Source of the DNA: an uncultured Actinomycetes bacterium
Lineage (GTDB): Bacteria > Actinomycetota > Acidimicrobiia > Acidimicrobiales > Microtrichaceae
Reading direction: 5' to 3'
DNA length: 36,058 nt
Assembly (NCBI GenBank): GCA_903873135.1
Contig: CAIQNH010000119.1
Coordinates: 1-36,058 of the forward strand
Positions 5,192-22,417 of the stretch are shown one piece after another. The position numbers were made by a program, and so were the translations under genes. The notes beneath the pieces are model-generated. The model ran no database searches. It was not told the origin of the DNA and was given only the letters and a program-made list of their open reading frames with translations. The stretch's first letter is position 1. Every line of letters begins with the position of its first letter.

Positions 5192-5207
5192 GACAGGTTC
5201 CTCGACC

Positions 5208-5516
5208 TCATCCCCTCAGCAACGACACGTCGTCGGCGTTCGCCTCGGCCCGGCGACGCATGATGGCCACGATGATCGCCAGACCCACGACCACCTCGGC
5301 GGCGGCCACGACCAGCACGAAGAACACGACCGTCTGACCACCGACGTCGCCGAGGAGGTTCCCGAACGCCACGAAGGTGAGGTTGACCGCGTTGAGCATG
5401 AGCTCGACGCACATGAACATCACGAGCGGGTTCCGCCGGACGATCAGGCCGACTGCCCCGATGGCGAAGATGATCGCCGCCAGGACCAGGTACCAGGAGT
5501 CACCGAAGGTGAACAT
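5208..5516 (-). CDS. nuoK: NADH-quinone oxidoreductase subunit K
   Basis: Small membrane subunit of complex I, 102 residues with three predicted transmembrane helices, matching the usual length of about 100. It carries the conserved [19 protein letters not shown] stretch, in which the buried glutamate (CVELMLN) takes part in proton translocation, and a second glutamate in [11 protein letters not shown]. The ATG start shares one base with the nuoJ stop. The product packs beside NuoJ, NuoA and NuoN at the quinone-proximal end of the membrane arm. Identity is secure. Confidence 0.97.
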
Positions 5517-6241
5517 CAGCTCGTCACCTCGGAGTCGGCGGACTCGTCGTCCTGCCCGTCGGCGTCACCGGTGTCGGTCGCATCGTCGCCCGACCCGTCC
5601 TCGCCGTCGGCGTCGGCGTCGGCGTCGGCGGTGTCCTCGTCGACGAGGGCACCGGGGTGATCCGAGACCCACACGTCGTAGGCGGAGCCGTCGGGGAACT
5701 CCTCGAGGTCGATCGGGGTCCCGGTCGACCTCCGGGTGAGCACCACCGCACCGACCACCGCCACGGTCAGGAGCAGCGCGGTGATCTCGAAGGCGAACAC
5801 GTAGTCGGTGAAGATCGCCCGACCGAGTCGCTCGACGTCGGGGACCGCCGGGTCGAGCGGCGCCGTGGCGGCCTCACGACCGGTGGTCCGCTGCCCGGCT
5901 GCGAGCAGGATCGCCACGCTCCCCGCCAGGAGGACGGCACCGCCGAGCACCGTGATCGTGCGGCGCAACCGGAACGGGTCGCGTTCGATCGCCTCGGCCT
6001 GATCCACTCCGAGCAGCATGATCACGAACAGGAACAGGATGACGATGGCCCCGGCGTAGACGATCACCTGGATGGCCGCGAGGAAGTAGGCCTCCTGGGC
6101 GATGAACAACACGGCGACCCCGAAGAGGGTCGCCACCAGGCTCAGCGCGTTGTGCACGGGGTTGCGGAACAACACGACGCCGAGCGCACCGCCCACGCAG
6201 ATCGCCCCGGCGACCAGGAACGTGAAGACCTCGACCCGCAT
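5516..6241 (-). CDS. nuoJ: NADH-quinone oxidoreductase subunit J with acidic C-terminal tail
   Basis: Membrane subunit of complex I, 241 residues with five predicted helices in the first 170 residues or so. The family stretch [23 protein letters not shown] is present, including the conserved Tyr/Gly pi-bulge region of helix 3. The protein is about 55 residues longer than the enterobacterial form. From about residue 197 to the end the tail is very acidic (Asp, Glu, Ala, Gly, Ser), partly coded by a four-fold GTCGGC repeat that gives alternating Asp-Ala. The start shares a base with the nuoI stop and the stop shares a base with the nuoK start. The tail role is unknown. Confidence 0.96.
5606..5629. 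repeat. Four tandem copies of GTCGGC inside nuoJ
   Basis: Positions 5606-5629 are four perfect copies of the hexamer GTCGGC. On the coding (minus) strand they specify alternating Asp and Ala in the acidic tail of NuoJ. A six-base unit keeps the frame, so copy-number change by slippage would lengthen or shorten the tail without breaking the gene. Confidence 0.85.
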
Positions 6242-6915
6242 CAGTGACCCGCACCGTGGTGGTCGTCGTGGTGGCCATCGTCGTGGTCGTCGTCGGTCTC
6301 CTGCTCGAGCGTCTGGCCACCCTCCGGCGAACGGACCCCGTAGCCGAGCTCGCCCGACCAGGCCACGACACCCTCGAACGAGGCGTCACCGCTCGGGGCG
6401 GTCGCCCGCATCCAGCCGGAGGTGTCCTCGGCCGGATCGAACCCGTCGCCCCAGTGCTCCCACGGGAGCTGCTGCGGACGGCCGTCGTCACCGACGAGCA
6501 GCTCGGACTTGGTGTAGATGGCGTCGGAGCGATTGGTGAAGGCGAACTCGAAGAGCTTCGTCTCGGTGATCGCCTCCGTCGGGCACGCCTCCACGCACAG
6601 GTCGCAGTGGATGCAGCGCAGGTAGTTGATCTCGTAGACGAACCCGTACCGCTCACCCGGCGAACGCGGGTCCTCCGGGTCGTTGTCGGCGCCGCGCACG
6701 TAGATGCACCGGGCGGGACACACCCCGGCGCACAGCTCGCACCCGATGCACTTCTCCATGCCGTCCTCGTAGCGGTTGAGCACGTGGCGACCGTGGAAAC
6801 GCGGCGGCTTCGGTCGGGTCTCCTCGGGGTACTGCACCGTGATGCGCCGACCCGTGTCCGACCGGGTGCCGAACCACTTGCGGAACGTGACCGCGAACCC
6901 GTCGAGGTACCCCAT
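6241..6915 (-). CDS. nuoI: NADH-quinone oxidoreductase subunit I with His/Asp-rich tail
   Basis: Peripheral-arm iron-sulphur subunit of complex I, 224 residues, carrying clusters N6a and N6b that pass electrons to NuoB. The two 4Fe-4S motifs are intact: Cys56, 59, 62 and 66, and Cys101, 104, 107 and 111, each CxxCxxCxxxCP. The ATG at 6915 was chosen because it shares one base with the nuoH stop and gives [16 protein letters not shown], the normal family start. The same frame stays open upstream but is antisense-like low-complexity sequence there. The protein is longer than the usual roughly 180 residues because of a C-terminal extension whose last 18 or so residues are mostly His, Asp and Gly ([17 protein letters not shown]). 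Confidence 0.96.
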
Positions 6916-8132
6916 CAGGACTCTCCCCCCGCCGCCACGTCGGCGGTCACGTCGTCGAGGTCGTCGCCGGAGGCGGCCCGGATCGACGAACGGAGCAGCA
7001 CGGCACCGACGACCACGACGGCGGCCGTGACGGCGACCGCCACCACCGGGTTCCAGCCCTGGTCCTCGGCGACCTTCAGGGACGTCAGGATCAGGAACCA
7101 CCCGAGGGCGAGCGGGATGAGGAACTTCCAGCCCAGGTCCATCAGCTGGTCGTAACGGAACCGGGGCAGGGTGGCCCGGAACCACACGAACACGAACAGG
7201 AAGATGAACAGCTTCCCGAAGAAGTACGTGAGGGGCAGCAGGTAGTCCTGCACCCAGCCCGGGGCACCGGACGGGATGGGGCCCTCCGGCCCGCCCAGGA
7301 ACAGGGTGACGATCACCGCCGACATGGTCACGGTGTTCATGAACTCCGCCAGGAAGAACAGGGCGAAGCGGATCGAGGAGTACTCCGTGTGGAAACCGCC
7401 CACGAGCTCCTGCTCGGCCTCGACCAGGTCGAACGGCGGCCGGTTGAGCTCGGCGGTGGCGGCGATCACGAACACGACGAACGGCACGAGCAGCGTCATC
7501 CAGAGGTTCCAACGCCACCCGGACTGCTCGGCCACGATGCCGTTGGTGGTGAGCGTGCCCGCGAGCAGGAGCACCGAGGCGACCGACAGACCGAGCGCCG
7601 CCTCGTAGGAGACCATCTGCGCCGAGGCGCGGACGGAACCGAGGAGCGGGTACTTCGAACCCGACGACCACCCGGCGAGCATCACGCCGTAGACGGCGAC
7701 CGAGCTCATGGCGAGCACGAACAGGATGCCCATCTGCGGGTTGGCGACCTGCATGAGGGTCTCGTGCCCGAGGAGCGTCACCACCCCGTCGTTGCCGTCG
7801 GAGAAGTTGCCGGCGATCGGGATGACGGTGAACACCAGGAACGCCGGCACCAGCGAGAGGTAGGGCGCGAGCTTGAAGACGAACGGGTCGGACCGCTCCG
7901 GCTGCAGATCCTCCTTGAAGAACAGCTTGATGCCGTCGGCCAGCGTCTGGAGGAGCCCGAACGGACCGGCCCGGTTGGGTCCGATGCGGTTCTGCATGTC
8001 GGCCACGAGCTTCCGCTCGAACCAGACCATGAGCATGACGCCCACCATCAGGGCGGCGAACGAGACCACCACCTTGAGCAGGACGATCAGGACCTCGGTC
8101 AGGCCGATCTCCCCGGAGAGCAGCGGGTCCAT
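6915..8132 (-). CDS. nuoH: NADH-quinone oxidoreductase subunit H
   Basis: Membrane subunit of complex I that forms much of the quinone cavity and links it to the proton path; 405 residues. The most conserved part of the family is visible near residues 39-62: [20 protein letters not shown] followed by PFGLLQ and GIKLFFKED. Further on are the acidic loop region with [20 protein letters not shown] and the [17 protein letters not shown] stretch. The protein is longer than E. coli NuoH (about 325) owing to an extra C-terminal hydrophobic segment and polar tail. ATG start sharing a base with the nuoG stop. Confidence 0.97.
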
Positions 8133-10612
8133 CAGGCGAGCTCCACCCTGACGTCGCAGGCGACCTCGTCGGCGGACAGGAGCGTGATCGGGTCGGAGCC
8201 CTCGAGCCGGTGGACCAGGTGCGCCGTGCCCCTCGGGATCCCTGCGCTCACCCGGGCCGGGAGGGTGGACGACCCCCGTTCGCCGCGGACGACCAACGGC
8301 GTCCCGTCCTCGACGCCGAGGCGCTCGGCGTCACCCACCGAGATCCCCACGGTGGGGGTGCGGGACAAGCCGGCCATGGACTCGGAGCGGCCGAGCAGCT
8401 CCCCCTCGTCGTAGAGCTCCCGGCTGAGCACGAGTCGGAGCGAGTAGCTGTCGACCTGCGGCACCGGTGCCGGGGTCCCCGGGTCGAACCCGCCGCCGGT
8501 CAGGTCCACCAGCACGCCGTCGTCGGCGGCCTCGAGCTCGGCCCACGTGGTCCCGGCGAGCCGGGGGGAGCCGGCCACCAGCTCGTCACGGAGGGCCTCC
8601 ACCGACGTGGCCGACCAGGTGGCCCCCAGGCGTCGGGCCAGCTCGACGGCGACCGCCCAGTCGGCCCGGGCGGTCCCGGGTGGGGTCACCTTGGGTCGAA
8701 CCCGACTGACCCGACCCTCGAGGTTCGTGGTGCTGCCGTCGACCTCACCGAGCATCGCTGCCGGCAGGACGACGTCGGCCCGGAGGACCGAGGGCGTCGG
8801 GAAGGAGTCGATCGCCACGATGGTCCCGACCCGGTCGAGCGCACGCTCGGCGAGCGCCCGGTCCGGGGCGTCACGCAGCGGGTCGGCACCGAGGAGCACC
8901 AGGGTCGAGATCGCGCCGTCGGCGGCGGCGGCCAGGATGCCCATCGCGTCCGCACCGACCTCGGTCGGCACGGTGGACCAGACCCCGGACCACCCGGCGT
9001 CCCCGTCGAGTCGGCCGCCCCCCGGCAGGCGACCCGGTGCCATGCCCGCCGTCACGGCGCCCCGCACGTTGCCGCGCCGGACCGCCGGGAGGAACCGCAC
9101 GCCGGGCAGGGCGCTGAGCGCCGCTGCGGCGTCGAGGACGACCTGCGGGGACTCGGCCAGGTTCGCCCGACCGAGCACCACCGTCACCGGACCGTCGGCC
9201 GCACCGAGGACCGCTGCGGCGGCTCGGAGATCGTCGGCGGACACGCCGGCCACACCGTCGGCGGGGGCGTCACCTGCGACCAGCGCCTCGGCCACGGCGG
9301 CCAGCTCGCCCGGTCGGGGTCGCACCCCGGCGGCCGAGTAGGGCGTCAGGCTCGTGGAGGTCGGGGTGACCTCGACGATCCGGACCCGGTCGCGCTGGGC
9401 GGCGTGCTTGAGGCGCAGGAAGAGGACGGGGAGCTCCTCCTTGGGGTCCGGACCCACGTAGAGGACGGTCCCACCCGGTCGGCACACCTCGTCGATCGTC
9501 GCCCCCGGCAGGTCGAACACCGCGGCGGGCAGGCCGTCGCCGAGCTGGGCGTCGACGTGGTCGGTCCCGACGACTCCCTTGGCGAGCGCCGCCCAGGCGT
9601 AGGCCGACTCGTCGGTCGAACGGGAGCCGCCGAGGACGGCCACGCTCGACGGGTCGGCGGAGCCGAGTGCGTCGGCCACGGCGGCGAGCGCCTCGGACCA
9701 CCGCACCGGTTCGAGGGAGCCGTCCGCACCACGCCGCAACGGCTCGGTGAGCCGGTCCTCGCTGTTGGTCGCCTCGAACGCGAACCGGCCGGCGTCGCAG
9801 AGCCAGGACCAGTTGACCGGGTCGGCGTCGACGCCGTTGATCCGCAGCATCCGGTCACGACTCGACTCGAGGGTCACCCGGCAGCCGACCGAGCAGACCG
9901 TGCAGGTCGACTCGGTGCGCTCCAGGTCCCACGGCCGCGCCCGGAACCGGTACGGCGTGGCCGTCAGCGCACCCACCGGGCAGATCTGCACCGTGTTGCC
10001 CGAGAAGTAGGAGCTGAACGGATCGCCGGGGAAGGTGTTCACCTCGGTGTTGGAACCCCGGTTGATGAAGTGGATCAACGGGTCGTCGGTGACCTCGGAG
10101 GCGAACCGGGTGCAGCGGTCGCAGAGGATGCAGCGCTCACGGTCGAGCAGCACCAGCGGCGAGATCTCGATCGGCTTCTCGTAGTGCCGCTTCTCCTCCA
10201 CCCAGCGGGACTCACCCGGCCCGTAGGCCATGGTCTGGTCCTGCAGCGGACACTCCCCACCCTTGTCGCAGACGGGGCAGTCGAGCGGGTGGTTGGCGAG
10301 CAGGAACTCGAGCACGCCGTCCTGGGCCTTGGTGACCCGCTCGCTGGTCGTCTCCACCACCATGTCGGGAGCCGTGGGGATCATGCAGCTCGGCTGCAGG
10401 GCCGGACCGCGACCGGTGTCGACCTCGACGAGGCACATCCGACACATGCCCACCGGCTCCATGCGGGGGTGGTAGCAGAACCGCGGGATGTAGGCGTCGT
10501 TGCGCTCGCACGCGTCGATCAGCAGTTCGCCGCGCTGCACCTCCACCTGACGACCGTCGACGGTGATCGTGACGGGGTCGGTGACCTCGATCGGGCGGGG
10601 GCGCTCAGACAC
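8132..10612 (-). CDS. nuoG: NADH-quinone oxidoreductase subunit G
   Basis: Largest peripheral subunit of complex I, 826 residues, which carries electrons from NuoF/NuoE toward NuoI. All cluster ligands can be placed: the 2Fe-2S site Cys46, 57, 60 and 76; N5 with His108, Cys112, 115 and 121; N4 with Cys161, 164, 167 and 211. The optional off-path cluster N7 is also complete, with Cys237, 240 and 244 followed, 27 residues later, by Cys272. The C-terminal two thirds is the molybdopterin-oxidoreductase-like domain, which has no cofactor in complex I. Start is GTG at 10612, overlapping the nuoF end by eight bases; no nearby ATG fits better. Confidence 0.96.
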
Positions 10613-12020
10613 CGTCGCCTCCCGATCCGGCAGCAGCCACCGGGATCAGGTCCCGCCGGGTGATGCGGGCCTCGAACTCGTTGCGGAACCGGCGGATGGC
10701 CGAGGTGATGGGCGCCACCGACGACGGTCCGAGCGGGCAGATCGTCGTCTGCTTGGGCGGGAACGGCACCGCCTCGAGGCCGTGTTCCGGGTCGGCGGCG
10801 ACGGGGTACGGACCGGGGCTGATGTTGTCGGCCACGTCGAGGAGCAGGTCGATGTCCGACGGGCGGCCGTGACCCTCGAGGATCCGCTCGAGGATCTTCT
10901 CCTCCCAGGTGGTGCCCTCACGGCACGGGGTGCACTTGCCGCAGGACTCGCGAGCGAAGAACCGCACCAGCGAGTAGCACGCCTCCACGGCGTCGGTGGT
11001 CTCGTCCATCACGACCACCGCACCGGAGCCGAGCATGGAGCCGGCAGCACCGACGGGCTTGGCCTCGAGCGGCAGGTCGATCTGCTCGGGGAAGAACCAC
11101 GGTGCCGAGGCGCCCCCCGGGATGAACATCTTGAGCTCGTTGCCGTCCCGGATCCCGCCACCGTAGCGATCGTCGTGGAACAGGTCCCGGAAGGTCGTGG
11201 TCCCCTGCGGCACCTCGTACACACCGGGGCGACGGACGTGGCCCGACAGCGCGATCAGCCGCGTCCCGGGCGACGTCTCGGTGCCGACGGCCCGGTAGGC
11301 GTCGACGCCGTGGTGGAGGATCCACGGGAGGTTCGAGAGCGTCTCGACGTTGTTGACGATGGTGGGCTGCATGTAGAGCCCCTTGGCCGCCGGGAAGAAC
11401 GGCGGCTTGAGCCGCGGCATGCCCCGGTTACCCTCGAGCGACTCGATCAGCGCCGTCTCCTCGCCGACGATGTACGCCCCCGCACCCCAGTGGAGGACCA
11501 CGTCGACGCTGAAGTCGGTGCCCATGATGTTGCGACCGACGAGTCCGGCGGCCAGGGCCTCGTTGAGGGCGCCGGCGATGCGCTCCTGCGCGTGGGGCAT
11601 CTCGCCGCGGACGTACAGGAAGACCTGGGCGGCGCCGATCGCGTAGGCCGCCACGAGCGCACCCTCGATCAACTGGTGCGGGTCACGCTCCATGAGGAGG
11701 CGGTCCTTGAACGTCCCCGGTTCGGACTCGTCGCCGTTGACCACGACGTAGCGGGGCCAGACACCCGGCGGGCAGAAGCCCCACTTCACACCGGCCGGGA
11801 AACCAGCGCCTCCCCGGCCGAGGAGCGTGGCGGACGCCACCGTCTCCCGGACCTCGTCCGGCGTCCGGTCCAGCGCGGCGGCCAGTCCGGCGTAGCCGGG
11901 GAAGGAACCGGAGTTCCGGTAGACGTCGAGGGTGTGGGCCTCGGGGACGTCGAAGCGGGACGAGACGATGAGCGGGGTGTCCCCCGATCCGCCGGTCCGC
12001 TCCGCGGGTGCGTCGCTCAC
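10605..12020 (-). CDS. nuoF: NADH-quinone oxidoreductase subunit F
   Basis: NADH- and FMN-binding subunit of complex I, 471 residues. The FMN/NADH glycine-rich motif GRGGAGFPAGVKWGF (about 69-82) is followed by VVNGDESEPGTFKDRLLME. The N3 4Fe-4S ligands are Cys360, 363 and 366 (ESCGKCTPC) and Cys428. The gap from the third to the fourth ligand is 61 residues, about 21 more than in the E. coli or Thermus proteins; the extra part is Pro-rich (SPGPYP to PFPPKQ). The start is GTG at 12020, overlapping the nuoE stop in GTGA; the frame is open further upstream but reads shadow sequence of nuoE. Confidence 0.95.
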   Translation of the reverse strand: MSDAPAERTGGSGDTPLIVSSRFDVPEAHTLDVYRNSGSFPGYAGLAAALDRTPDEVRETVASATLLGRGGAGFPAGVKWGFCPPGVWPRYVVVNGDESEPGTFKDRLLMERDPHQLIEGALVAAYAIGAAQVFLYVRGEMPHAQERIAGALNEALAAGLVGRNIMGTDFSVDVVLHWGAGAYIVGEETALIESLEGNRGMPRLKPPFFPAAKGLYMQPTIVNNVETLSNLPWILHHGVDAYRAVGTETSPGTRLIALSGHVRRPGVYEVPQGTTTFRDLFHDDRYGGGIRDGNELKMFIPGGASAPWFFPEQIDLPLEAKPVGAAGSMLGSGAVVVMDETTDAVEACYSLVRFFARESCGKCTPCREGTTWEEKILERILEGHGRPSDIDLLLDVADNISPGPYPVAADPEHGLEAVPFPPKQTTICPLGPSSVAPITSAIRRFRNEFEARITRRDLIPVAAAGSGGDGV

Positions 12021-12646
12021 GATGCTCCCTCCTCGGCCGTCGCGTTGCGGGCGAACCACACGGGTTCGACCTGCTGCTCCGGCGGCGTCACGTTGGCGAG
12101 GTCGTCCGGCCCGAGTTCCTGGCGCACGAGCCCCAGCGTCCCGTGCGGGGGGAACTCCTCGGCCCGGCCGGTCCCGGCGCGCAGGTCGTCGATCAGGGCG
12201 TCGAGCAGGTCGGCGTCGACCCGCTCCACGTAGCGGTAGTTGACCTGCAGCGCCGGCGCCTCGGTGCACGCAGCGATGCACTCGACGTCCTCGAGCGTCA
12301 CCTGACCGTCGGCGGTGGTGCCACCCGCCCGCACCCCGAGCCGCTCCTCGGCCCGGGCGAGCAGGTCGGCCGCGCCGACGATCCGGCACGAGATGTTGGT
12401 GCAGATGTTCAGGCAGTAGCGGCCGACGGGATGCAGCTTGAACATCTCGTAGAAGCTCGCCGTGCCCAGGACCTCCGCCGGCGTGCAGCCGACGAGCTCG
12501 GCCACGTGCTCCATGGCGTCGGTGGCCAGGTGGCCGTCCTGCTCCTGCGCCAGGTGGCACAGGGGGATCGTCGCCGACTTGGGCACCGGGTACCGGGCCA
12601 CGATGCGGCGTGCGAGCGCCTCGTTCTCCGGGGTGAACCTCGCCAC
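12017..12646 (-). CDS. nuoE: NADH-quinone oxidoreductase subunit E
   Basis: Thioredoxin-fold 2Fe-2S subunit (cluster N1a) of complex I that pairs with NuoF; 209 residues. Ligands are Cys82 and Cys87 (CTNISC, C-x4-C) and Cys123 and Cys127 (CIAAC, C-x3-C). The N-terminal helical region and HLAQEQDGHLATDAMEHVAE are typical. The start is GTG at 12646, supported by a strong Shine-Dalgarno AGGAGG with six bases between, 13 bases after the nuoD stop. The C-terminal 55 residues or so beyond the fold are polar and not conserved in shorter family members. Identity is secure. Confidence 0.95.
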   Translation of the reverse strand: MARFTPENEALARRIVARYPVPKSATIPLCHLAQEQDGHLATDAMEHVAELVGCTPAEVLGTASFYEMFKLHPVGRYCLNICTNISCRIVGAADLLARAEERLGVRAGGTTADGQVTLEDVECIAACTEAPALQVNYRYVERVDADLLDALIDDLRAGTGRAEEFPPHGTLGLVRQELGPDDLANVTPPEQQVEPVWFARNATAEEGAS

Positions 12647-12659
12647 GGACGCCCTCCTC

Positions 12660-13994
12660 TCAGCGATCCACGTCGCCCATGATCGGGTCGACCGACGACA
12701 CGATGGCGACCGTGTCGGCGATGAGCGAGCCCTGCATGAGGTGCGGGAGTGTCTGGAGGTTCACGAAGCTCGGCGCTCGGATGTGCATGCGGACGGGATG
12801 GGACGACCCGTCGGAGACCAGGTAGCAGCCGAGCTCCCCCCGAGGGTTCTCCACCGCCACGTAGACCTCACCCTCGGGAACCTTGAAGCCCTCGGTGAAG
12901 ATCTTGAAGTGGTGGATGAGCGCCTCCATGGACTCGTCGATCCGAGCCCTCGGCGGCGGGGTCACCTTCTTGTCCTGGATCCGGTAGTCGCCAGGGGGCA
13001 TCTTGTCCATGCACTGCCGGACGATGCGAATCGACTCGCGGATCTCGGCCAGGCGGATGCTGTACCGGTCGAAGCTGTCACCGTGGGTCCCCACGATGAC
13101 GTCGAAGTCGAGCTGGTCGTAGCAGAGGTAGGGCAGGTCCCGACGCAGGTCCCACGCGTAGCCGGTCGACCGGAGGATCGGGCCGGTGGCCCCCAGCGAG
13201 ATCGCCTCCTCGGCGGTGATCACGCCCACCCCCTGCAGCCGGTCACGCCAGATGGGCTGGCCGGTCATCAGGGTGTCGAACTCCTCGAGTCGCTCCGGGA
13301 GCACCGACAGGACGCGATCGAGTTCGTCCTCCCACCCGTCGGGCAGGTCGGCGGCCACGCCACCCGGCCGGATGTAGTTGTGGTTCATCCGCAGTCCGGT
13401 CACCTGCTCCAGGAACCGGAGGAGCTCCTCGCGCTCGCGCCAGCCGTACAGCATCATGCCGACCGCGCCCAGATCCATCCCGTTCGTGGCCATGAACAGC
13501 ATGTGGGAGGAGATCCGGTTGACCTCGCACATCAGGGTGCGGATCCACTGGGCCCGCTCGGGAACCTCGACGCCGAGGAGCTGCTCGGTGGCCATGGAGA
13601 ACACCAGCTCGTTGAAGAGCGGGGCGGCGTAGTCCATCCGGGTCACGTTGGTCGGACCCTGCAGGTACGTGAGCTGCTCGGCGGTCTTCTCCATCCCGGT
13701 GTGGAGGTAGCCCACGACCGGGCGGGACCGGGTGATCTCCTCGCCGTCGAGCTCCAGGACCAGCCGCAGCACGCCGTGGGTCGACGGGTGCTGGGGGCCC
13801 ATGTTCATGATCATCCGCTCGCCCAGACCCTCGTCGGTGGGCGGCTGGTAGCCGGAGCGCTCCTCGGCCTCCGTGGCGGAGAGTCGCAGCACGGCGTCGT
13901 CGGTGGCCAGACGCGTCCGGGCCTCGTCGAGGACGGACAGGTCCACGACGGCGTCGGCGTCGTCCACGGTGGTCGGGTCCACGACCTGGCTCAC
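12660..13994 (-). CDS. nuoD: NADH-quinone oxidoreductase subunit D
   Basis: Quinone-site subunit of complex I, related to the large subunit of NiFe hydrogenases but without the metal ligands; 444 residues. The conserved NMGPQHPSTHGVLRLVLELDGE stretch (about 63-85) holds the quinone-contact histidine, and later blocks such as GFLHTGMEK-like VVGYLHTGMEKTAEQLTY and the C-terminal GVLGSVDPIMGDVDR-like end (VSSVDPIMGDVDR) match the family. It is a separate gene from nuoC, as in most bacteria and unlike E. coli. The start is GTG at 13994, overlapping the nuoC stop (GTGA). The first 55 residues or so are an extension without recognised function. Confidence 0.96.
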   Translation of the reverse strand: MSQVVDPTTVDDADAVVDLSVLDEARTRLATDDAVLRLSATEAEERSGYQPPTDEGLGERMIMNMGPQHPSTHGVLRLVLELDGEEITRSRPVVGYLHTGMEKTAEQLTYLQGPTNVTRMDYAAPLFNELVFSMATEQLLGVEVPERAQWIRTLMCEVNRISSHMLFMATNGMDLGAVGMMLYGWREREELLRFLEQVTGLRMNHNYIRPGGVAADLPDGWEDELDRVLSVLPERLEEFDTLMTGQPIWRDRLQGVGVITAEEAISLGATGPILRSTGYAWDLRRDLPYLCYDQLDFDVIVGTHGDSFDRYSIRLAEIRESIRIVRQCMDKMPPGDYRIQDKKVTPPPRARIDESMEALIHHFKIFTEGFKVPEGEVYVAVENPRGELGCYLVSDGSSHPVRMHIRAPSFVNLQTLPHLMQGSLIADTVAIVSSVDPIMGDVDR

Positions 13995-14533
13995 GGTCTC
14001 GCTCCCCCGCTGGCGGTCGGGTCCTTGAACTGCACCGGGATCCGACCCACCGACTCGTCCTTGCGCAGCGGGTGGCCGACCCAGTCGTCGGGCAGCAGGA
14101 TCCGGCTCAGGTCCGGGTGTCCGCTGAAGACGATCCCGAGCAGATCGTGGGTCTCACGCTCCGAGGCCTCCAGCCCGGGGTGGACCTCGAACAACGACGG
14201 CACGACGGCGTCGTCCTCCGGCACCTGCAACCGGATCCTCGTCCGACGCCGGTTGCGGTGGTCGAGCAGGTTGACGACCACCTCGAAACGCTCCGGCTCG
14301 ACACCGGCCGGCAGACCGCGGCGACCGGGGTTGGTGAGGTGGTCGACGCCGCAGAGGTCCACCGCCACCCAGTAGCCCTCGGACCGGAGGCGCTCGACCA
14401 GACCGACGTACTCCCCACGAGCGGGGTGCAGGACCTCCTGCCCGTGCGACTCGGTGACGGGGACGCCGTGGCGGAGCTCCACCCGGGGCTCGGACGCCTC
14501 GGCAGGCGTGTCGGTGGTGTCGACCTCGCTCAC
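13991..14533 (-). CDS. nuoC: NADH-quinone oxidoreductase subunit C
   Basis: Peripheral-arm subunit (30-kDa family) of complex I with no cofactor, 180 residues. The family signature is clear near the C-terminal half: SERETHDLLGIVFSGHPDL then SRILLPDDWVGHPLRKDE. It interacts with NuoD and NuoB near the quinone site. The start is GTG at 14533, 13 bases after the nuoB stop; no good Shine-Dalgarno is visible, so translation may depend on coupling with nuoB. The first 30 residues are polar and variable, so a slightly later start is possible. Confidence 0.93.
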   Translation of the reverse strand: MSEVDTTDTPAEASEPRVELRHGVPVTESHGQEVLHPARGEYVGLVERLRSEGYWVAVDLCGVDHLTNPGRRGLPAGVEPERFEVVVNLLDHRNRRRTRIRLQVPEDDAVVPSLFEVHPGLEASERETHDLLGIVFSGHPDLSRILLPDDWVGHPLRKDESVGRIPVQFKDPTASGGARP

Positions 14534-14546
14534 GGGTTGGGACCGA

Positions 14547-15151
<605 letters not shown>

Positions 15152-15152
<1 letters not shown>

Positions 15153-15619
15153 CAGGCCGCCACCTCCCGGGAGTCGGCACGACCCTCGCTGCCCACCCGA
15201 CGGATCGTCGTCGAGGAGGTCCGGCCCGGCTCGGACCGGAGACGGGTGCGTCGGGCCCGCACCACCGGACCCCACTCGAGGGCCCCGTTGCGGATCAGGT
15301 ACAGGAACGACTCGAACACGGCGACGGCGAAGATGCCGATGGCCACGAGACCGAACGCGCCCAACTGACCGGCGACCTGGGTGAACGGGTAGAAGAAGAT
15401 GATCTCGATGTCGAAGACGATGAAGATCATGGCGATCAGGAAGAACCGGACGGGGAAGCGCTCCGGCGGATCGGCCTGGTCCACGATGCCGCACTCGTAG
15501 GGAGAGACCTTCACCGGGTTCGGACGACGCGGCTGGAGCAGGCTCGACGCCACGAAACTCAGGGCCGCGAACAGCGCGGCCAGCACGATCATGGCCACGA
15601 TCGGCAGGTACTGGCCCAC
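15152..15619 (-). CDS. nuoA: NADH-quinone oxidoreductase subunit A
   Basis: Small three-helix membrane subunit of complex I, 155 residues from the chosen start. The conserved loop is seen as [23 protein letters not shown], with the Cys that lies close to the quinone channel, followed by the acidic helix [11 protein letters not shown]. The start is taken as GTG at 15619, two bases after the TAA stop of the preceding gene; an ATG at 15664 would overlap that gene by 43 bases and add 15 residues with no family support. The C-terminal 40 residues are polar, with many Arg and Ser. It opens the nuo section of the operon. Confidence 0.93.
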
Positions 15620-15621
15620 GG

Positions 15622-16614
15622 TTACGGCACTCCGGCCGGCAACTCGGCCGTGGACGGGTCCCACTCCGCCCGCACCGCCATCGCCCGCTTGTCACGGTTG
15701 TGGAGCATCCACACCAGGGCGAAGAAGATGATGCCCGAGAACAGGGTGAAGAGGAACGGGATCAGCCGACGGGTCCCCAGGTTGCGGAGCAGCACCACCG
15801 TGACGGTGTCGGCCTCCTCGTCGATCTTGGGCGGAGGTGGAGCCTCGCCGGGGGCGACGATCTGGGGCACGTTCTTCTGCACCGTGACCGCCGCGTACAG
15901 CGGTGGGTTCTTGGGTTCGAACACGGTGACGACCCGCCGCCACGCCTTGTCGAGCAGCGACCGCTCACCCTTGACGGTCTCGGGTTCCGAGGCCGACTTC
16001 CCGCCGAAGAAGAACACGTCCTTGACCGTGTAGACGGAGGAGGAGGTGGACTCGCCGAACGCCTTCGACTCCGCCAGGAGGGCGTCGGCGGCGGCCACCG
16101 CGTCACCGCGGCGGGAGTCGGTCTCCGGGAGGATGCGCCACCCGTTGAGCTGGTCGTCGAGCTGGGACTTGAGCGACGGCGCCACCGTGACGGCGTCGGT
16201 GAGGGTCTCGGCCGTGAACCCCTCTCCCTCGGTCTCGGCGATCTGCTGGGCCAGGTCGGGGTTGGTGACCAGGTAGTCCGCCAGCAGGGTCTGCGGGTCG
16301 GGCAGCGCGTCGGAGGCGGGCAGCTGCTCCACGACCTCCGTGGCCACGGCCTCGGATCGGGAGAAGTTGACCTCCTTGGAGATCCACGACGGGTCCGCGC
16401 CCCGCAGGCCGATGCCGTAGATCCACCAGATGATCCCCATGGAGAACATCCACCCCATGAGGCCGGCCAGCGCGATCAGGAAGCCGTTGCGGACACCCGT
16501 GTTGGTGGCGAGCAGCAGGTAGACGGAGCCGCACAGCACGACCACGCCCACGGCGACCACGAGGGCGCCGCGGATGTTCGGGTCGAAGGCGATGGCGGAG
16601 AGCACGAGAGACAT
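15622..16614 (-). CDS. Unrecognised membrane protein between the bc and nuo gene sets
   Basis: I do not recognise this 330-residue protein. It has two hydrophobic helices near the N terminus (about 14-36 and 44-66), a roughly 215-residue soluble part with many Ala, Glu and Asp, and a third helix near 285-308 followed by a short basic-then-acidic tail. The soluble part contains short phrases resembling helical repeats ([20 protein letters not shown]) and a Pro-rich linker ([16 protein letters not shown]) before the last helix. No haem, iron-sulphur or nucleotide motif is visible. It lies between the cytochrome c gene (26-base gap) and nuoA (two-base gap), so it is surely co-transcribed; a role in assembly or in holding the two complexes together is conjecture. 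ATG start. Confidence 0.85.
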
Positions 16615-16640: not shown

Positions 16641-17873
16641 TCACTCGCTGGGTGAAGGTCGCGGGACGTCGATGAACGACGGGGACTCGGCGGTACCGGC
16701 CACGGGCGACTTGACCGTGGATGCGTTGGAGAGGTTCCGCTCGTAGGTGACGATCGCCCAGACCTGCTCGGGGGTGAGCTGACCCTCCTTGCCCAGGTCG
16801 GGGATCCCCTCGTCCGAGCGTCCGGAGTTCCTGTTGACGCCGAAGCCCGGCATCTGCGGGTTGCCCTGCTTGCGGGAGAAGTAGAGCTTGCCGGAGTCCA
16901 TGCCCTTCCAGATCAGGTCGAAGTGCTGCTGCTCCGTGGCCTCGGCCTCGACGCCGACGAGACTCGGTCCGAACGATCCGTACTGGAGACGCTCGAACGG
17001 CTCCCAGCCCTTGCCGTAGCTGGCGCCGGCCACGTGGCACCGGGCGCAGGAGTAGGAACCGGCGGCGAGCTCCTGGTTGTTGAACAGGATCTCGCCGAGC
17101 TTGATCTCGTCGCCGCGGGAGAGACGGTTGGCGTCGACCGGCTCCACGTCGCCGTTGGGCGCCACGTCGGCGTTGGACCGCCGCACCTCCATCATGCGCT
17201 CGTAGAGGCCCGGGTCGATCCCCTTCACGAACTCGTCGACGGTGAGCCGCATCTCCTCGACCGGGAGCTGCACCGACCACAGGTAGTCGATCACCTCGTC
17301 GATCTGCTGGGTGGTGAGCGGACCGCCGCCCTCGGCACCCCAGGCGGCCATCGGCGAGCCGGGGCGGCCGTAGTTGAGGACGTAGCGGACCTGGTCCTCG
17401 TCGTAGCGGTACAGGACGTTGTTCAACGCCGGCGCGATCCAGTTCACCTGGGCCACGAAGCTGCCGCTCTGGTCGTTGATGACGAAGTTCGCCAGACCAC
17501 CCACGCCGGCACCGCCGTGGCAGTTCACGCACTGCGCACCGTTCTCGTAGATCTCCAGCCCACGACGCACGAACGTCTCGTCGAAGGTCTCGACGGCGCC
17601 CTCCTGGCGGCCCGGCTCACCGAGCCAGTAGAGCGGCAGTCCGACGGCGATCGTGGCGAGCAGCCCGAGCGCCGAGAACAGCGCCACGTTGAGCCGCTTG
17701 CCCTCGAGCTCCTCGTCGGGGGTGCCCGGCCGCCGGTTGGCCGCCAGCTCGATCTCGGAGCCGATCTCGTCACGGCCCGAGCGCAGGTTCACGAACAGCC
17801 ACAGCAGGAAGCCGATCACGACCAGCACCAGGATCACGAAGCCGATCGCCCGTTGGGTGGTTGCGAGGAACAT
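16641..17873 (-). CDS. Membrane-anchored two-haem cytochrome c of the bc complex
   Basis: Electron carrier subunit of the quinol oxidase-feeding bc complex, 410 residues. Two hydrophobic segments (about 9-29 and 63-84) precede two class I cytochrome c domains, with haem sites Cys115-Cys118-His119 (CVNCH) and Cys276-Cys279-His280 (CARCH). Likely methionine ligands are in GSPMAAWG and in the PQMPGFG region. Two haems on one subunit is the plan of actinobacterial QcrC, which passes electrons directly to the terminal oxidase; however, this protein has two N-terminal helices rather than one C-terminal anchor, so I do not assign the qcrC symbol. ATG start; 46 bases after the Rieske gene. Confidence 0.9.
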   Translation of the reverse strand: MFLATTQRAIGFVILVLVVIGFLLWLFVNLRSGRDEIGSEIELAANRRPGTPDEELEGKRLNVALFSALGLLATIAVGLPLYWLGEPGRQEGAVETFDETFVRRGLEIYENGAQCVNCHGGAGVGGLANFVINDQSGSFVAQVNWIAPALNNVLYRYDEDQVRYVLNYGRPGSPMAAWGAEGGGPLTTQQIDEVIDYLWSVQLPVEEMRLTVDEFVKGIDPGLYERMMEVRRSNADVAPNGDVEPVDANRLSRGDEIKLGEILFNNQELAAGSYSCARCHVAGASYGKGWEPFERLQYGSFGPSLVGVEAEATEQQHFDLIWKGMDSGKLYFSRKQGNPQMPGFGVNRNSGRSDEGIPDLGKEGQLTPEQVWAIVTYERNLSNASTVKSPVAGTAESPSFIDVPRPSPSE

Positions 17874-17919: not shown

Positions 17920-18804
17920 TCAGCCGCTGTGGCCGCCCGAGGCGGCACCGATGCAGTTGGGACCCTCGGCCTCCTGGCCGGTGGTGTTGGTGCCGATCGG
18001 CGGGCCCTGGATCACCTGGCCGGTGTTGACCACGAGCACGCCGCCGTTGACCTCGGTGGCGAAGCGGTCCATGCCACGGGGTGCGGGACCGCCCTTCTTC
18101 TCGCCGGCCTGGTTGTACTGCGAGCCGTGGCACGGGCACTCGAACCACTGGGAGCTCTTGCAGTCCGGCACCCGGCAGCCCAGGTGCGGACACTTCTGGT
18201 AGAGCACGGCGATCCCGGCCTTGAGCGAGTTCAGCACGGGAGCGGAGTAGACCTGCTCGGCCTTCGGGAGCGCTGCCGACGGGTAGTTCGTCAGCCACAT
18301 GCGGCCCTCGGGCTTGTAGAGGAACCCGCCGCCCTTCTCGATCTCGGACTTGAGGTCCGCCACCGACCCGACCCGGATCTTGGAGCCGAACCCGCCGCCG
18401 CCGGAGGGCCACAGGAAGCCGACGATCGCCACGCCGAACACGGTGAGTCCCAGCCCGAACAGAGCGAACACGCCACGGTTGAGGAACTGACGTCGGGTGA
18501 CGCCGTAGGTCTCCGGGTCCGGCGGCACGAACACCGCCGGCGGAGCGGAGTCGTCGACGTTCGCCACGGCACCGGCGCCGACCCGGGCCAGAGCGGCGCT
18601 CCGCTCGACCTCGGCGCCGGACACCGGGGTGTCGACCACCGAGGAGGCCTCGGCCTTGCGGGCCGCAGCGTCGCGCTGCTTGGTCTCCCGGGCCAGGGTG
18701 CCGACGGCAGCGTCGACGTCCCGGCGGCGGATGGCACCGGCCAGGGCGACCGCGGCGAGCACCACGACCACCAGGACCGACAGGAGGATGAAGACACCGT
18801 TCAC
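17920..18804 (-). CDS. Rieske iron-sulphur protein of the bc complex
   Basis: The 2Fe-2S subunit that takes the first electron from quinol; 294 residues. The Rieske boxes are CPHLGC (Cys205, His207, Cys210) and CPCHGS (Cys223, Cys225, His226). By family rule the ligands are Cys205, His207, Cys223 and His226, with a Cys210-Cys225 disulphide. An extra Cys215 lies between them. There are two membrane segments: one at residues 4-24 and one at about 111-132, the latter preceded by a twin-arginine signal-like TRRQFLNR, as expected for Tat-exported Rieske proteins. Start is GTG at 18804, with GAGGTG overlapping the stop of the preceding gene as Shine-Dalgarno. Confidence 0.93.
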   Translation of the reverse strand: MNGVFILLSVLVVVVLAAVALAGAIRRRDVDAAVGTLARETKQRDAAARKAEASSVVDTPVSGAEVERSAALARVGAGAVANVDDSAPPAVFVPPDPETYGVTRRQFLNRGVFALFGLGLTVFGVAIVGFLWPSGGGGFGSKIRVGSVADLKSEIEKGGGFLYKPEGRMWLTNYPSAALPKAEQVYSAPVLNSLKAGIAVLYQKCPHLGCRVPDCKSSQWFECPCHGSQYNQAGEKKGGPAPRGMDRFATEVNGGVLVVNTGQVIQGPPIGTNTTGQEAEGPNCIGAASGGHSG

Positions 18805-18816
18805 TTCGCAGTCACC

Positions 18817-19617
18817 TCACAGTTCGAAGAAGAGGCCGTCGATCCAGGGCAGGGTGAAGTTGAACCCCGGGCCCCGGAAGAACGAGCCGATGATGACGAG
18901 GACGGCCCAGAACATCAGGAAGAGCGTCATCAAGGAGATGGCGAACTTCCGGTCCTCGGGCTTGTTGGACGGGTTCTTGTCCATGTAGGGGGCCAGGATC
19001 AGCAGGAAGATGCCCATGCCCGGGATGGTCACGCCGGCGACCATCGGGTGGAACATCGTCAGCAACTCCTGGAGGCCCAGGAAGTACCACGGCGCCTTGG
19101 ACGGGTTGGGGGTCTTGTTGAAGTCCGCCAGTTCGAGCAGCGGGGCGTTGACGAACCAGGAGAAGAACAGGAGGAACGACGAGCAGGCCAGGGCAGCGAC
19201 GAACTCGCCGACGATCAGGTGGGGCCAGACGTGGACCTTGTCCTGGGGCTTGGCCTTCACGTCCTGGATGGAACCGGCCTTGACCACCGTGAGGAGGCGC
19301 TGGGTGTGCCCGCCGGGGCCGGCGGCGAGCGGAGGACCGCCTGCGGCCACCACGGCTCCGCCGGTCGACGCCGTGGCCACGGCCGTGGCCGTCCCGCCAC
19401 CGGACTCGCTCGCCTCGGCGTCGTCACCACCCGCCTTGCGGGACTTGGCGGCCTTGGACCGCTCGAGCAGGTGCGCCGGAATCCGGCTGTCGCCGCCACC
19501 CGACGACGGGGCCGCGGTCTCCTCGGCGGCACCCTCGGCCGGCGTCTCGGCCTGGCTCGCCGCCTTGTCTCGGGCTGCCTTGGCCCGCTTCAACAGGTGC
19601 TCTGGAACCTCGGTCAT
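18817..19617 (-). CDS. Cytochrome b C-terminal half (subunit IV type) with repeated N-terminal motif
   Basis: Second half of a split cytochrome b, 266 residues; the last 135 or so form three membrane helices that complete the quinol-oxidation site. The stretch NPSKAPWYFLGLQELL (171-186) stands where PEWY occurs in subunit IV; here the acidic residue before WY is replaced (APWY), a form known from other bacterial subunit IV-like proteins. The first 105 residues are an unusual polar tail rich in Ala, Glu, Ser and Gly, holding two copies of a short basic helix motif at 4-19 (VPEHLLKRAKAARDKA) and 46-61 (IPAHLLERSKAAKSRK). A similar motif begins the divergent cytochrome c gene. ATG start; product faces the cytoplasm at its N terminus by topology inference. 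Confidence 0.9.
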   Translation of the reverse strand: MTEVPEHLLKRAKAARDKAASQAETPAEGAAEETAAPSSGGGDSRIPAHLLERSKAAKSRKAGGDDAEASESGGGTATAVATASTGGAVVAAGGPPLAAGPGGHTQRLLTVVKAGSIQDVKAKPQDKVHVWPHLIVGEFVAALACSSFLLFFSWFVNAPLLELADFNKTPNPSKAPWYFLGLQELLTMFHPMVAGVTIPGMGIFLLILAPYMDKNPSNKPEDRKFAISLMTLFLMFWAVLVIIGSFFRGPGFNFTLPWIDGLFFEL

Positions 19618-19666: not shown

Positions 19667-20452
19667 TCACAGCGGTCCGGAGATGCCGCCGTCCTTGCGG
19701 ACTCTCCAGAAGTGGATCGCCATGAAGATCACGGTGATGAACGGGAAGAACAGGACGTGGAGTACGTACCATCGCAGCAGCGTGTCGGTGCCGATCTCCG
19801 CACCGCCGAGCAGCACGAACCGCACCTGCGAGCCGAACACCGGTGTGTAGCCCATCATGTTGGTGCCCACCGTCACGGCCCAGAGCGCCAGCTGGTCCCA
19901 CGGCAGCAGGTAGCCCGTGAACGACAGCAGCAGGGTCAGGGTGAGCAGCACCACGCCGATGACCCAGTTGAACTCCCGGGGCGCCTTGTAGGCGCCGTGG
20001 TAGAAGACGCGGGCCATGTGCAGGAACACCGTCAGCACCATCAGGTGCGCACCCCACCGGTGCATGTTCCGCACCAGCAGGCCGAACGTCACCGACGTCT
20101 GGAGCGTGTAGATGTCGTCCCACGCCTGCGCTGCGGTCGGTCTGTAGAAGAACATCAGGAAGATGCCGGTCACCGTCAGCACGATGAACACGAAGAAGCT
20201 GAGTCCGCCGAGGCAGAGCGTGTAGCTGACCTTGACGGCGTGCCGCTTCACCTTCACCGGGTGCAGGTGGTAGAGCACGCTGTTCATGATCACGTAGGAC
20301 CGGTTCCGGGGGCTGTCGGAGTAGCCCTTCCGGAAGATCGAGCCGGGCCGGAAGATCGAGTTCCAGGCCTGCGAGCTCTGCACCTGGTCGGTGACCTGGC
20401 TGATCTTGTCCTGGATCTTGGTCTTGGGCGAACCCTGCATGGTCTTGGCCAC
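19667..20452 (-). CDS. b6-type cytochrome b with predicted extra covalent haem
   Basis: N-terminal four-helix half of a split cytochrome b, 261 residues. Haem b ligands are His131 and His145 (14 apart) and His232 and His247 (15 apart), and PWDQ lies at 184-187. Cys80 in CLGG lies 51 residues before His131, the same spacing as Cys35 to His86 in plant and cyanobacterial cytochrome b6, where that Cys holds haem c_n (c_i). A covalent third haem is therefore predicted; Firmicute b6-type proteins share this. Start is GTG at 20452, six bases after AGGAG; an ATG four codons later is possible but lacks such spacing. Confidence 0.93.
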   Translation of the reverse strand: MAKTMQGSPKTKIQDKISQVTDQVQSSQAWNSIFRPGSIFRKGYSDSPRNRSYVIMNSVLYHLHPVKVKRHAVKVSYTLCLGGLSFFVFIVLTVTGIFLMFFYRPTAAQAWDDIYTLQTSVTFGLLVRNMHRWGAHLMVLTVFLHMARVFYHGAYKAPREFNWVIGVVLLTLTLLLSFTGYLLPWDQLALWAVTVGTNMMGYTPVFGSQVRFVLLGGAEIGTDTLLRWYVLHVLFFPFITVIFMAIHFWRVRKDGGISGPL

Positions 20453-20509: not shown

Positions 20510-20926
20510 TCAGCCGAGCCGCATCCCGTAGCCGTAGCCGTGGGTCGAGGTCCGTTGGTGGAGGTCACCCGCAGCGGCAGGGTCGCCGACCTTGCCGAGG
20601 ATGATCACGCCGGTCGGGCACCGGTCCACGCACAGGGCGCAACGGGTGCAGACGTCGTCGTCGATGAGGAAGACCACGTGGTCCGACGGGTCGGTGCCCG
20701 GCCGGTCGACGCCGATCGACTCGTCGATCGCATCGGTGGTGACCATGTGGATGCACTTCCACGGGCAGATGTCGACGCAGCCCTCGCACATGATGCACTC
20801 GGACTGGTCGATGTGGATGAACTGCTTGGGCTTGACCGCCTTGGCCAGGTAGTCGGCGTCGACCTCCTGGAGGACGTAGTCGTCGACGAACTCCGGCATC
20901 GGTGGGTTGGCATCTGTCGTGGTCAC
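20510..20926 (-). CDS. 2[4Fe-4S] ferredoxin in the bc operon
   Basis: Small iron-sulphur protein, 138 residues. Two complete motifs are seen: Cys44, 47, 50 and 54 (CIMCEGCVDIC) and Cys93, 96, 99 and 103 (CTRCALCVDRC), each followed by Pro. About 35 residues with many Asp separate the motifs, more than in a minimal clostridial ferredoxin, so it looks like a NuoI-type electron-wire module. The C-terminal 25 residues include a Gly/Tyr/His-rich end. No membrane segment. Start is GTG at 20926 with AGGAGG upstream. Its position between a small membrane protein and cytochrome b suggests it exchanges electrons with the bc complex or with quinone, but the partner is inferred only from context. Confidence 0.9.
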   Translation of the reverse strand: MTTTDANPPMPEFVDDYVLQEVDADYLAKAVKPKQFIHIDQSECIMCEGCVDICPWKCIHMVTTDAIDESIGVDRPGTDPSDHVVFLIDDDVCTRCALCVDRCPTGVIILGKVGDPAAAGDLHQRTSTHGYGYGMRLG

Positions 20927-20986
20927 CGGTCAACTCCTCCTTCCGTGGTCTGGTTGGTCATCGTGTCGGTCGCCGCTCGGTGCCGC

Positions 20987-21421
20987 TCAGGCCCGCTTCA
21001 TCAGCGGGCGTCCGTAGGTCGACGTGGGCTCGATGGCCGCGAGCTGCTCGGCACGGATGCCCCGCTTCTGCCACCAGGCCCACATCCAGATCTGGCCGCC
21101 GAGGAACACCACGTAGATCAGGGTGGCGATGATGTCGCGGATCACCTGCGCCGAGACCTGCACCGGGAACACCTCGAGGAGGGAACCACCCGGACCGAAC
21201 CAGATGGTGTCGGGGCGCCAGTTGAGCTCCGAGTCCGCCCAGGTCAACCAGTGGTGCGGCACGACTCCGTAGATCCAGAAGAGGACGAAGAAGATGTACG
21301 TCCCGCCGAGGATCGCCTCACCCCACGTCAACGGTGTGCCGACCGGTCGACGCTTGGCGTAGGGGAAGATCGGAGCGACCATGACCACCGTCAACAGCAG
21401 CGATGTCAGGAACGCAACCAC
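20987..21421 (-). CDS. Unrecognised three-helix membrane protein, first gene of the respiratory operon
   Basis: I do not recognise this 144-residue protein. Three hydrophobic segments are visible: the N terminus (about 2-20), the middle (about 45-66, ending in VVPHHWLTW) and about 95-118 (rich in Trp: QIWMWAWWQKRG). Between segments two and three is a loop with SELNWRPDTIWFGPGG. The adjacent His-His after the second helix could be a haem or metal ligand but no family is matched. The start is GTG at 21421, six bases after GGAGG; upstream codons of the same frame are promoter DNA. It heads the operon, 60 bases before the ferredoxin gene, so it is probably a small subunit or membrane anchor for the ferredoxin. 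Confidence 0.82.
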   Translation of the reverse strand: MVAFLTSLLLTVVMVAPIFPYAKRRPVGTPLTWGEAILGGTYIFFVLFWIYGVVPHHWLTWADSELNWRPDTIWFGPGGSLLEVFPVQVSAQVIRDIIATLIYVVFLGGQIWMWAWWQKRGIRAEQLAAIEPTSTYGRPLMKRA

Positions 21422-21667: not shown

Positions 21668-22417
21668 TTGACTGAAGTTCCCGAGCACCTGCTGGCCCGG
21701 AGCCGCGCCCGACGGGCTGCGCTGTCCGGCGAGGCCGTCGACGCCCCGGCCCCGGCCGCCGAGGCCTCGTCCGCCCCGGTGCCCACCTCCCAGGAGACGG
21801 CGCCCGCCGCCACGACGGCCGCCGCTGCCCCCGCAGCCGTGACCCCCGCAGCCGTGGAGCCCACCCCACCGTGGGTCGAGGCTGCGTCACGTCGGCGGAA
21901 GATCCCGTTCTGGGCCGTCCCCGTGCTGGCGCTCCTGCCCTTCTGGGCGGTGCTGTACGCCCTCACCCTGGACCCGCCCACACCCAAGGACTCCCCCATC
22001 GCCCTGGGCGACGAGGTCTACGCCAACAAGGGGTGCAGCGGTTGCCACGGCGCCGGCGGTGGCGGCAACGGCAACATCCCGGCCCTGATCGGTGACACCG
22101 CCGTGACGAAGGTGTGGCCGACCCCGGCCAAGCAGGTGGCCTGGATCGCCCTGGGCTCCGAGGGCTGGAAGAAGGCCGGCGAGACGACCATGGAGAACGG
22201 TCTGGCCGTCAAGGGCGGCATGCCGTCGTTCAAGGCCGCGCTCGACCCCGAGGAGATCATGGCGGTCACGCTCCACGAGCGACTCCTCAACGGCGAGGCG
22301 TTCGACGCCGAACTCTGGTCGAAGGACTTCGCCGCCACCGTGGAGGAGTACCTCCCCGAGCAGGCCGCCGAGTACGAGAAGGTGCTCGAGGAGTGGACGG
22401 CCCAGCCCCCGGTCTGA
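21668..22417 (+). CDS. Membrane-anchored mono-haem cytochrome c
   Basis: Class I cytochrome c tethered by one helix, 249 residues. Haem site Cys123-Cys126-His127 (CSGCH), with a likely Met ligand in KGGMPSF. One membrane helix lies at about 79-101, so the haem domain is outside the cell membrane. The first 75 residues should be cytoplasmic: they start with VPEHLLARSRARRAAL (4-19), the motif also found in the subunit IV-like protein, followed by an Ala/Pro-rich linker. Start is TTG at 21668, supported by GGAGG five bases upstream and by the motif starting at residue 4. It probably carries electrons between the bc complex and an oxidase; no oxidase gene is in the window. Confidence 0.9.
   Translation: MTEVPEHLLARSRARRAALSGEAVDAPAPAAEASSAPVPTSQETAPAATTAAAAPAAVTPAAVEPTPPWVEAASRRRKIPFWAVPVLALLPFWAVLYALTLDPPTPKDSPIALGDEVYANKGCSGCHGAGGGGNGNIPALIGDTAVTKVWPTPAKQVAWIALGSEGWKKAGETTMENGLAVKGGMPSFKAALDPEEIMAVTLHERLLNGEAFDAELWSKDFAATVEEYLPEQAAEYEKVLEEWTAQPPV

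Follow-up and report, generated by a model that had tools for sequence, protein, structure and literature searches.

Why should the genes of a cytochrome bc complex be headed by a ferredoxin gene? On its cytoplasmic side, complex III is normally viewed as closed to everything but quinone, and the exchange of electrons between b6f-type complexes and ferredoxin or NAD(P)H is an open question for cyclic electron flow. The stretch of DNA analysed here (36,058 nucleotides, "the window") carries an operon of this kind on its reverse strand. As the initial annotation had it, the first gene encodes a small three-helix membrane protein (144 amino acids; positions 20987 to 21421) and the second a 2[4Fe-4S] ferredoxin (138 amino acids; 20510 to 20926); both positions and their place at the head of the operon are correct. 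These two genes are followed by those for a cytochrome b6-type subunit (19667 to 20452), a C-terminal half of cytochrome b that resembles subunit IV and is extended at length at its N-terminus (18817 to 19617), a Rieske [2Fe-2S] protein (17920 to 18804), a dihaem cytochrome c with two CxxCH motifs (16641 to 17873) and a membrane protein of 330 amino acids with no assigned function (15622 to 16614). The successive intergenic gaps are 60, 57, 49, 12, 46 and 26 nucleotides, and GGAGG-like ribosome sites precede several of the starts. The 330-residue protein, also found 3' of the cytochrome c gene in many relatives, has no Pfam match and is possibly a further subunit.

The operon continues straight into a complete nuoA-N cluster for complex I (67 to 15664, same strand), in which NuoI is a separate gene; we treat this cluster as a neighbour and do not claim it as part of the bc complex. 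In all eight loci of the same order that were read to 20 kb the bc operon likewise runs into nuoA. Other families of the class have nuo upstream of the bc genes in divergent orientation (L081, L093, L097, L098, L101, L105, L106 and L108) or show no nuo genes in the stretch read. On the other side of the window operon a divergent gene for a monohaem c-type cytochrome (21668 to 22417, forward strand) adjoins it, as in many relatives. Its product and subunit IV have the N-terminal motif TEVPEHLLxRxxAxR in common, and subunit IV carries a second, similar copy; the cross-match between the two proteins recurs in several relatives. A genome search with the subunit IV N-terminus gave no clear further copy of the motif, the search being insensitive enough to miss the cytochrome c itself.

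The core of the complex resembles cytochrome b6f. Cytochrome b is split into b6 and subunit IV, and the b6 subunit aligns with plastid and cyanobacterial b6 over residues 75-261 (E 1.9e-49). This alignment places its Cys80 at Cys35 of the solved b6, the cysteine of haem c_n. Unlike plastid and cyanobacterial b6f, the window has a ferredoxin gene in the operon and lacks cytochrome f: the domains of the c subunit are only Cytochrom_C/CBB3, with no match to a cytochrome f family, so that the complex is better described as b6f-like than as strictly b6f. It also differs from the actinobacterial bcc complex (QcrABC), which is the complex III of related genomes and has one long QcrB in place of b6 and subunit IV; against the QcrB model NF050120 the window b6 scores 120.6 bits, below the cut-off of 500. 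By NCBIfam rules the b6 would be named ExtP, since it scores 306 bits against NF040969 (cut-off 290), whereas subunit IV reaches only 52.4 bits against ExtQ (NF040970, cut-off 150). ExtP and ExtQ belong to selenite and tellurite reduction operons, while the setting here is one of Rieske protein, dihaem cytochrome c and nuo genes, and the name ExtP probably tells little about the function of the window b6.

The ferredoxin itself was correctly identified from the outset, having two CxxCxxCxxxC motifs and several Pfam Fer4/dicluster domains above cut-off. Its eight cluster cysteines are invariant in 62 aligned sequences, the window included, and likewise in 73 unique sequences. The C-terminal tail (residues 120-138, with HGYGYGMRL) is kept in most of the class and is shorter or absent in other classes; it is disordered in the model of the isolated ferredoxin (mean pLDDT 74.3 over the whole model) and may fold on a partner. 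A displaced NuoI or other complex I subunit was ruled out by a score of 39.8 bits against TIGR01971 (cut-off 113.05), by the separate NuoI and by the linkage to b6.

For the small protein, three long hydrophobic stretches and an all-helical AlphaFold2 model (mean pLDDT 90.8) bear out the three-helix membrane protein of the initial annotation. It has no match in Pfam (E ≤ 0.001) or NCBIfam (E ≤ 0.1); Foldseek on the PDB with the model gave no match at E ≤ 0.001, and a PDB sequence search returned only weak, unrelated matches (best E 0.0039). The best VIA-align match, to channel helices, had a Z of 5.3, which means little for a helical protein. Among 59 sequences the conserved residues are W33 (59), P55 (58), D96 (57), Q118 (58) and S134 (55), together with G137-R138-P139 (56 each). 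The annotation had also drawn attention to a His-His beside a helix end. The two residues are there, at positions 56-57, but the first is histidine in 38 of the 59 sequences and the second in the window alone (1/59), and a role as haem or proton site is ruled out by this lack of conservation. Basic residues mark the cytoplasmic segments of membrane proteins (the positive-inside rule), and their distribution suggests that loop 1 and the C-terminus are cytoplasmic, which would put the His-His at the p side, across the membrane from a cytoplasmic ferredoxin.

Does the pair belong to this form of bc complex? We surveyed 148 genomes of the class for the small protein (E ≤ 0.001), the ferredoxin (E ≤ 1e-20) and cytochrome b (E ≤ 1e-15) and found matches in 93, 120 and 142 genomes, respectively. 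Directly 5' of a window-type b6 lie 119 of the 124 ferredoxin matches; of the remaining five, one is an additional copy in G107 and four are contig-end pieces in G076, G131 (two) and G139. Similarly, 89 of the 94 small-protein matches are followed by the ferredoxin, the exceptions being two at contig ends (G096 and G084) and three with b6 directly next (G110, G036 and G018). A profile search of the 57 window-clade loci placed a small-protein match upstream of b6, in the same orientation, in 56. Of the 57 loci, 36 are seeds of the profile, directly or as the same genome; 20 of the 21 others were found, and the sole miss (L128) is cut off by a contig end. Twenty window-type loci were also fetched from other classes, picked from search matches so as to cover families, and 19 of them carry the ferredoxin 5' of b6.

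Presence of the ferredoxin largely alternates with that of QcrB. A single match to the window cytochrome b is present in the window genome (98.3% complete), where a search for QcrB at E ≤ 1e-60 gave nothing. In fourteen genomes of this order the sole cytochrome b is a distant one (E 1e-22 to 1e-29), and both the ferredoxin and the small protein are missing at the thresholds used; the three of them that were checked (G014, G047 and G059) have a QcrB above the curated cut-off. Of the 59 genera sampled in the order, ferredoxin without QcrB is found in 27, both in 12, QcrB only in 19 and neither in one, this last being represented by a genome (G768) that is 70% complete. Put otherwise, 27 of the 28 genera without QcrB have the ferredoxin, and 19 of the 20 without the ferredoxin have QcrB (Fisher p 1.5e-6 for the 59 genera, uncorrected for relatedness). 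The claim that the pair is tied to this bc form, for which gene order in related genomes had been named as the check, thus comes out clearly in favour. Operon linkage and the alternation with QcrB together argue that the ferredoxin and small protein belong to this bc form, with QcrABC as the alternative form of complex III in the same order. Gene order is not, however, the same thing as physical association.

Four genomes depart from this pattern: G110, G018, G036 and G256 keep the window-type b6 and the small protein, and the ferredoxin is absent beside them. Genome-wide, the best matches to the ferredoxin profile are 1.1e-10, 2.2e-10 and 6.8e-9 in the first three, and G256 has none at 1e-6. 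The weak match of G110 falls inside nuoI, and those of the other two are probably of the same kind. The ferredoxin is thus dispensable to the core of the complex, and the small protein does more than hold the ferredoxin. Altered n-side sites of b6 were considered as a docking footprint and set aside, since the b6 sequences of these four genomes show no clear excess, with 2 changes at 39 near-invariant n-side sites and 2 at 68 others. KOR/POR, considered as a conceivable source of reduced ferredoxin, was likewise rejected as an obligate partner. POR_N (PF01855, E ≤ 1e-20) occurs in 129 of the 148 genomes and in 10 of the 14 QcrB-type genomes; it was not found in the window genome and 14 other genomes with the ferredoxin complex, 11 of these 15 being more than 90% complete and the other four counting as weak absences.

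The origin of the ferredoxin is suggested by more distant relatives. At least 19 of the 148 genomes have a second, paralogous b6 (50-65% identity among the matches listed), and three of the carriers (G038, G062 and G109) have no window-type b6. At 12 paralogue loci the ferredoxin match is the C-terminal part of an ORF of more than 600 residues that has GltD-like motifs and lies 5' of b6. A scan of named genome contigs with this paralogue, in which 80 loci were kept of 180 relatives, found a two-cluster ORF just 5' of b6 in all 80; 73 of these have a GltD-like match, and the remaining seven have less than 1.2 kb of upstream contig. Twenty-six of the 80 loci are titled Chloroflexota (one as Ca. 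Limnocylindrales), with a b6 that is 56-64% identical to that of the window. Pfam searches of three flavoprotein-ferredoxins gave Pyr_redox_2 and Fer4 in all three and Fer4_20 in two, and we take the flavoprotein part to be a GltD-like FAD/NAD(P) oxidoreductase. In each of eight Chloroflexota genomes searched whole, the flavoprotein-ferredoxin is the only match to the window ferredoxin profile (E ≤ 1e-6), its C-terminal 2[4Fe-4S] domain being the part that matches; the window has no counterpart of the FAD/NAD(P) part. Not all Chloroflexota loci carry the module. Of 50 loci, a non-random set made up of the 30 best and 20 from further down the list, the flavoprotein-ferredoxin is present in 20 and a ferredoxin-like ORF without a GltD match in one (L267); the remaining 29 have neither, at least one of them (L245) being truncated at a contig end.

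None of the 57 window-clade loci has a GltD-like match upstream, although L128 has nearly no upstream sequence. A quick maximum-likelihood tree was built from 88 b6 sequences; its outgroup is not set apart by a single branch, several of its long branches are doubtful and its deepest splits are unsettled. In this tree the window type forms one group (SH-aLRT 97), with the ferredoxin in 18 of its 22 rows, nothing in four and the flavoprotein never; the paralogue forms another (SH-aLRT 99), three rows of which are without upstream contig. A single loss of the flavoprotein, at the root of the window clade, is the simplest reading. The opposite order, with an original ferredoxin to which the flavoprotein was fused later, more than once, may apply instead. 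Of 61 actinobacterial paralogue loci, 49 have, just 5' of the flavoprotein gene, a relative of the small protein that is two-helix by its hydrophobic pattern; this count includes eight paralogue seed loci and several genomes fetched twice. The relative was found there in 0 of 24 Chloroflexota loci, and no window-clade locus has a match in that place. With this relative beside the flavoprotein-ferredoxin, the small protein and the ferredoxin look like a module common to two old paralogous complexes. One locus (L135, in G030) has two different Rieske/b clusters about 5 kb apart, a b6 of 42% identity as against the paralogous form with flavoprotein-ferredoxin.

The explanation that we favour, and that on balance we expect to hold, is that of a b6f-like complex with an n-side ferredoxin module left from a GltD-like oxidoreductase. 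It draws on the operon linkage, the flavoprotein homology, the small-protein relative, the invariant cluster cysteines and the window-clade tree. The operon would encode a Rieske/cytochrome b complex that bears a further redox module at its cytoplasmic (n) face. The ferredoxin would once have been the electron-transfer domain of a GltD-like FAD/NAD(P)H oxidoreductase, whose flavoprotein part disappeared in this lineage while the ferredoxin stayed on as a subunit in its own right, and the small membrane protein would belong to the same module. The ferredoxin is probably a redox subunit of the complex. It could dock over the n-side haems b_N/c_n and pass electrons between these, hence the menaquinone pool, and soluble cytoplasmic carriers, menaquinone presumably being the quinone of these bacteria. 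An electron inlet from ferredoxin to quinone had been put forward in the initial annotation, and the idea of an n-side redox module gains support from the homologous operons in which the ferredoxin is fused to an NAD(P) oxidoreductase.

The annotation had further noted that the haem c_n site of the neighbouring cytochrome b faces the right side for such an inlet. The cysteine is indeed present in the window b6, and its CLGG pattern occurs in all 57 window-clade loci, but it occurs in 0 of 63 paralogue loci with the flavoprotein-ferredoxin (some genomes counted twice). In Chloroflexota it is found in 44 of 47 loci with the module and in 24 of 29 without it. Since the paralogue loci have the module and lack the cysteine, the case for c_n as a required gateway is weakened; haem c_n is predicted here, yet does not go together with the ferredoxin module.

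The least certain step is the direction of net electron flow. Flow from a carrier through the ferredoxin and c_n/b_N to menaquinone would give the complex a quinone-reducing inlet beside the normal Q cycle. This inward direction is chemically the simplest but wasteful beside complex I, and we propose it only tentatively, as the slightly favoured one. Outward flow by bifurcation of quinol seems to us unlikely; in it one electron of menaquinol would pass to a high-potential Rieske protein and the second through b_P and b_N to the ferredoxin, yielding reduced ferredoxin or, by way of a soluble reductase, NAD(P)H. The homologous operons of GltD-ferredoxin and b6 speak for an outlet, as does the complex I of the same cluster, beside which an NADH inlet would be wasteful. 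A precedent is offered by anammox bacteria, for which NAD(P)-linked Rieske/b complexes have been described, with measured Rieske potentials of +303 and +335 mV (PMC12954380). Hauser et al. favour outward flow with a high-potential Rieske protein in Kuenenia, and they regard an inlet beside complex I as wasteful there too (PMC12954380). The same source ties a Ser and a Tyr of the Rieske protein to high potential (PMC12954380); both are present in the window (CPCHGSQY) and kept, as CPCHGS-x-Y, in 49 of 54 window-clade motif entries. Relatives that have no ferredoxin often carry this motif as well, so that it is not diagnostic. It was discarded as a marker of the ferredoxin form for that reason, and so was the LHxHP-type histidine of b6, which is conserved in relatives without ferredoxin as well. 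Against an outlet stand also the absence of the flavoprotein itself from the window and the short circuit that a working n-side quinone site would create, a problem named for the anammox complexes too (PMC12954380).

The likeness to those complexes, as judged from their published description, is partial. The Kuenenia stuttgartiensis clusters Kustd1480-1485 and Kuste4569-4574 have, like the window, a b6-like four-helix cytochrome b, a SUIV-like subunit and a Rieske protein (PMC12954380). An Fe-S module is encoded beside b6 in the window as well. For the anammox type an extra haem b at the b6 dimer interface is predicted; the feature of the present b6 to set beside it is the LHxHP-type histidine, conserved with and without a ferredoxin. 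In Kuenenia, however, the cytoplasmic-side subunit is an Fe-S/FAD NAD(P) oxidoreductase (PMC12954380), whereas the window has only the ferredoxin-like domain; a flavoprotein of this kind is present in the paralogue and in part of the Chloroflexota loci. Kuenenia further has multihaem c subunits where the window has a dihaem c, and the available part of the source describes no small three-helix protein such as the window encodes (PMC12954380).

A structural or assembly role for the ferredoxin, as a remnant of the lost flavoprotein with no net current through its clusters, is quite improbable in our estimate. Its absence from four genomes at separate places in the window clade, with the core intact, would fit such a role, as would the lack of a clear footprint of loss in b6. 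The eight cluster ligands are nevertheless invariant throughout the 62 sequences, including that of L083 from a family (f15) with genomes of about 1 Mb, which would be surprising for an idle remnant. That the two proteins serve complex I instead of the bc complex is very improbable and largely refuted by linkage: nuo genes do lie directly downstream here and in the eight same-order loci, or divergently upstream elsewhere, but the ferredoxin still adjoins b6 where the stretch has no nuo genes (L079, L083, L084, L085 and others), nuo has its own NuoI, and 19 of 20 order-mates without the ferredoxin have a QcrB-type bc complex.

NAD(P)-linked Rieske/b complexes are already known from anammox bacteria. 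The ferredoxin-only form, the small protein, the spread through Acidimicrobiia and other actinobacterial classes and the Chloroflexota operons are apparently unreported: a search of open-licence papers turned up no description of bc operons from actinobacteria or Chloroflexota that include a ferredoxin or flavoprotein-ferredoxin, which, given that coverage, is weak evidence of novelty. Of the 148 sampled genomes of the class, 120 have the ferredoxin encoded with complex III, among them members of a family whose genomes measure about 1 Mb. It is possible, though short of probable, that in most sampled Acidimicrobiia, and in several other actinobacterial classes, complex III works as a quinol/quinone enzyme coupled to ferredoxin, with a built-in ferredoxin that feeds or draws low-potential electrons at haem c_n. 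Like every claim of bc-ferredoxin coupling made here, this one rests on genomic comparison and models. Such a complex might exchange electrons with the cell interior, unlike the textbook complexes, and if so would be a bacterial working example of the long-sought direct link between ferredoxin and quinone in b6f complexes. Metabolic reconstructions in which these genes are labelled as a standard menaquinol-cytochrome c reductase would overlook a point where low-potential electrons may enter or leave. The natural series of flavoprotein-ferredoxin, ferredoxin only and none offers a testbed for electron exchange of b6f-type complexes with ferredoxin or NAD(P)H, and bears also on NAD(P)H production in anammox bacteria, which is an open question (PMC12954380).

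Two further observations concern other Rieske/b systems. Among eight distant actinobacterial b6 loci (L137-L144), none has a two-cluster ferredoxin ORF just upstream, and six (L137, L139, L140, L141, L142 and L144) adjoin ORFs with 4 to 11 CxxCH motifs. In Marine Group II archaea, genes for cytochrome b and a Rieske protein are reported in the absence of a canonical bc1 complex, along with an orphan RnfB-like Fe-S protein (PMC6336850); this protein might be a similar ferredoxin module.
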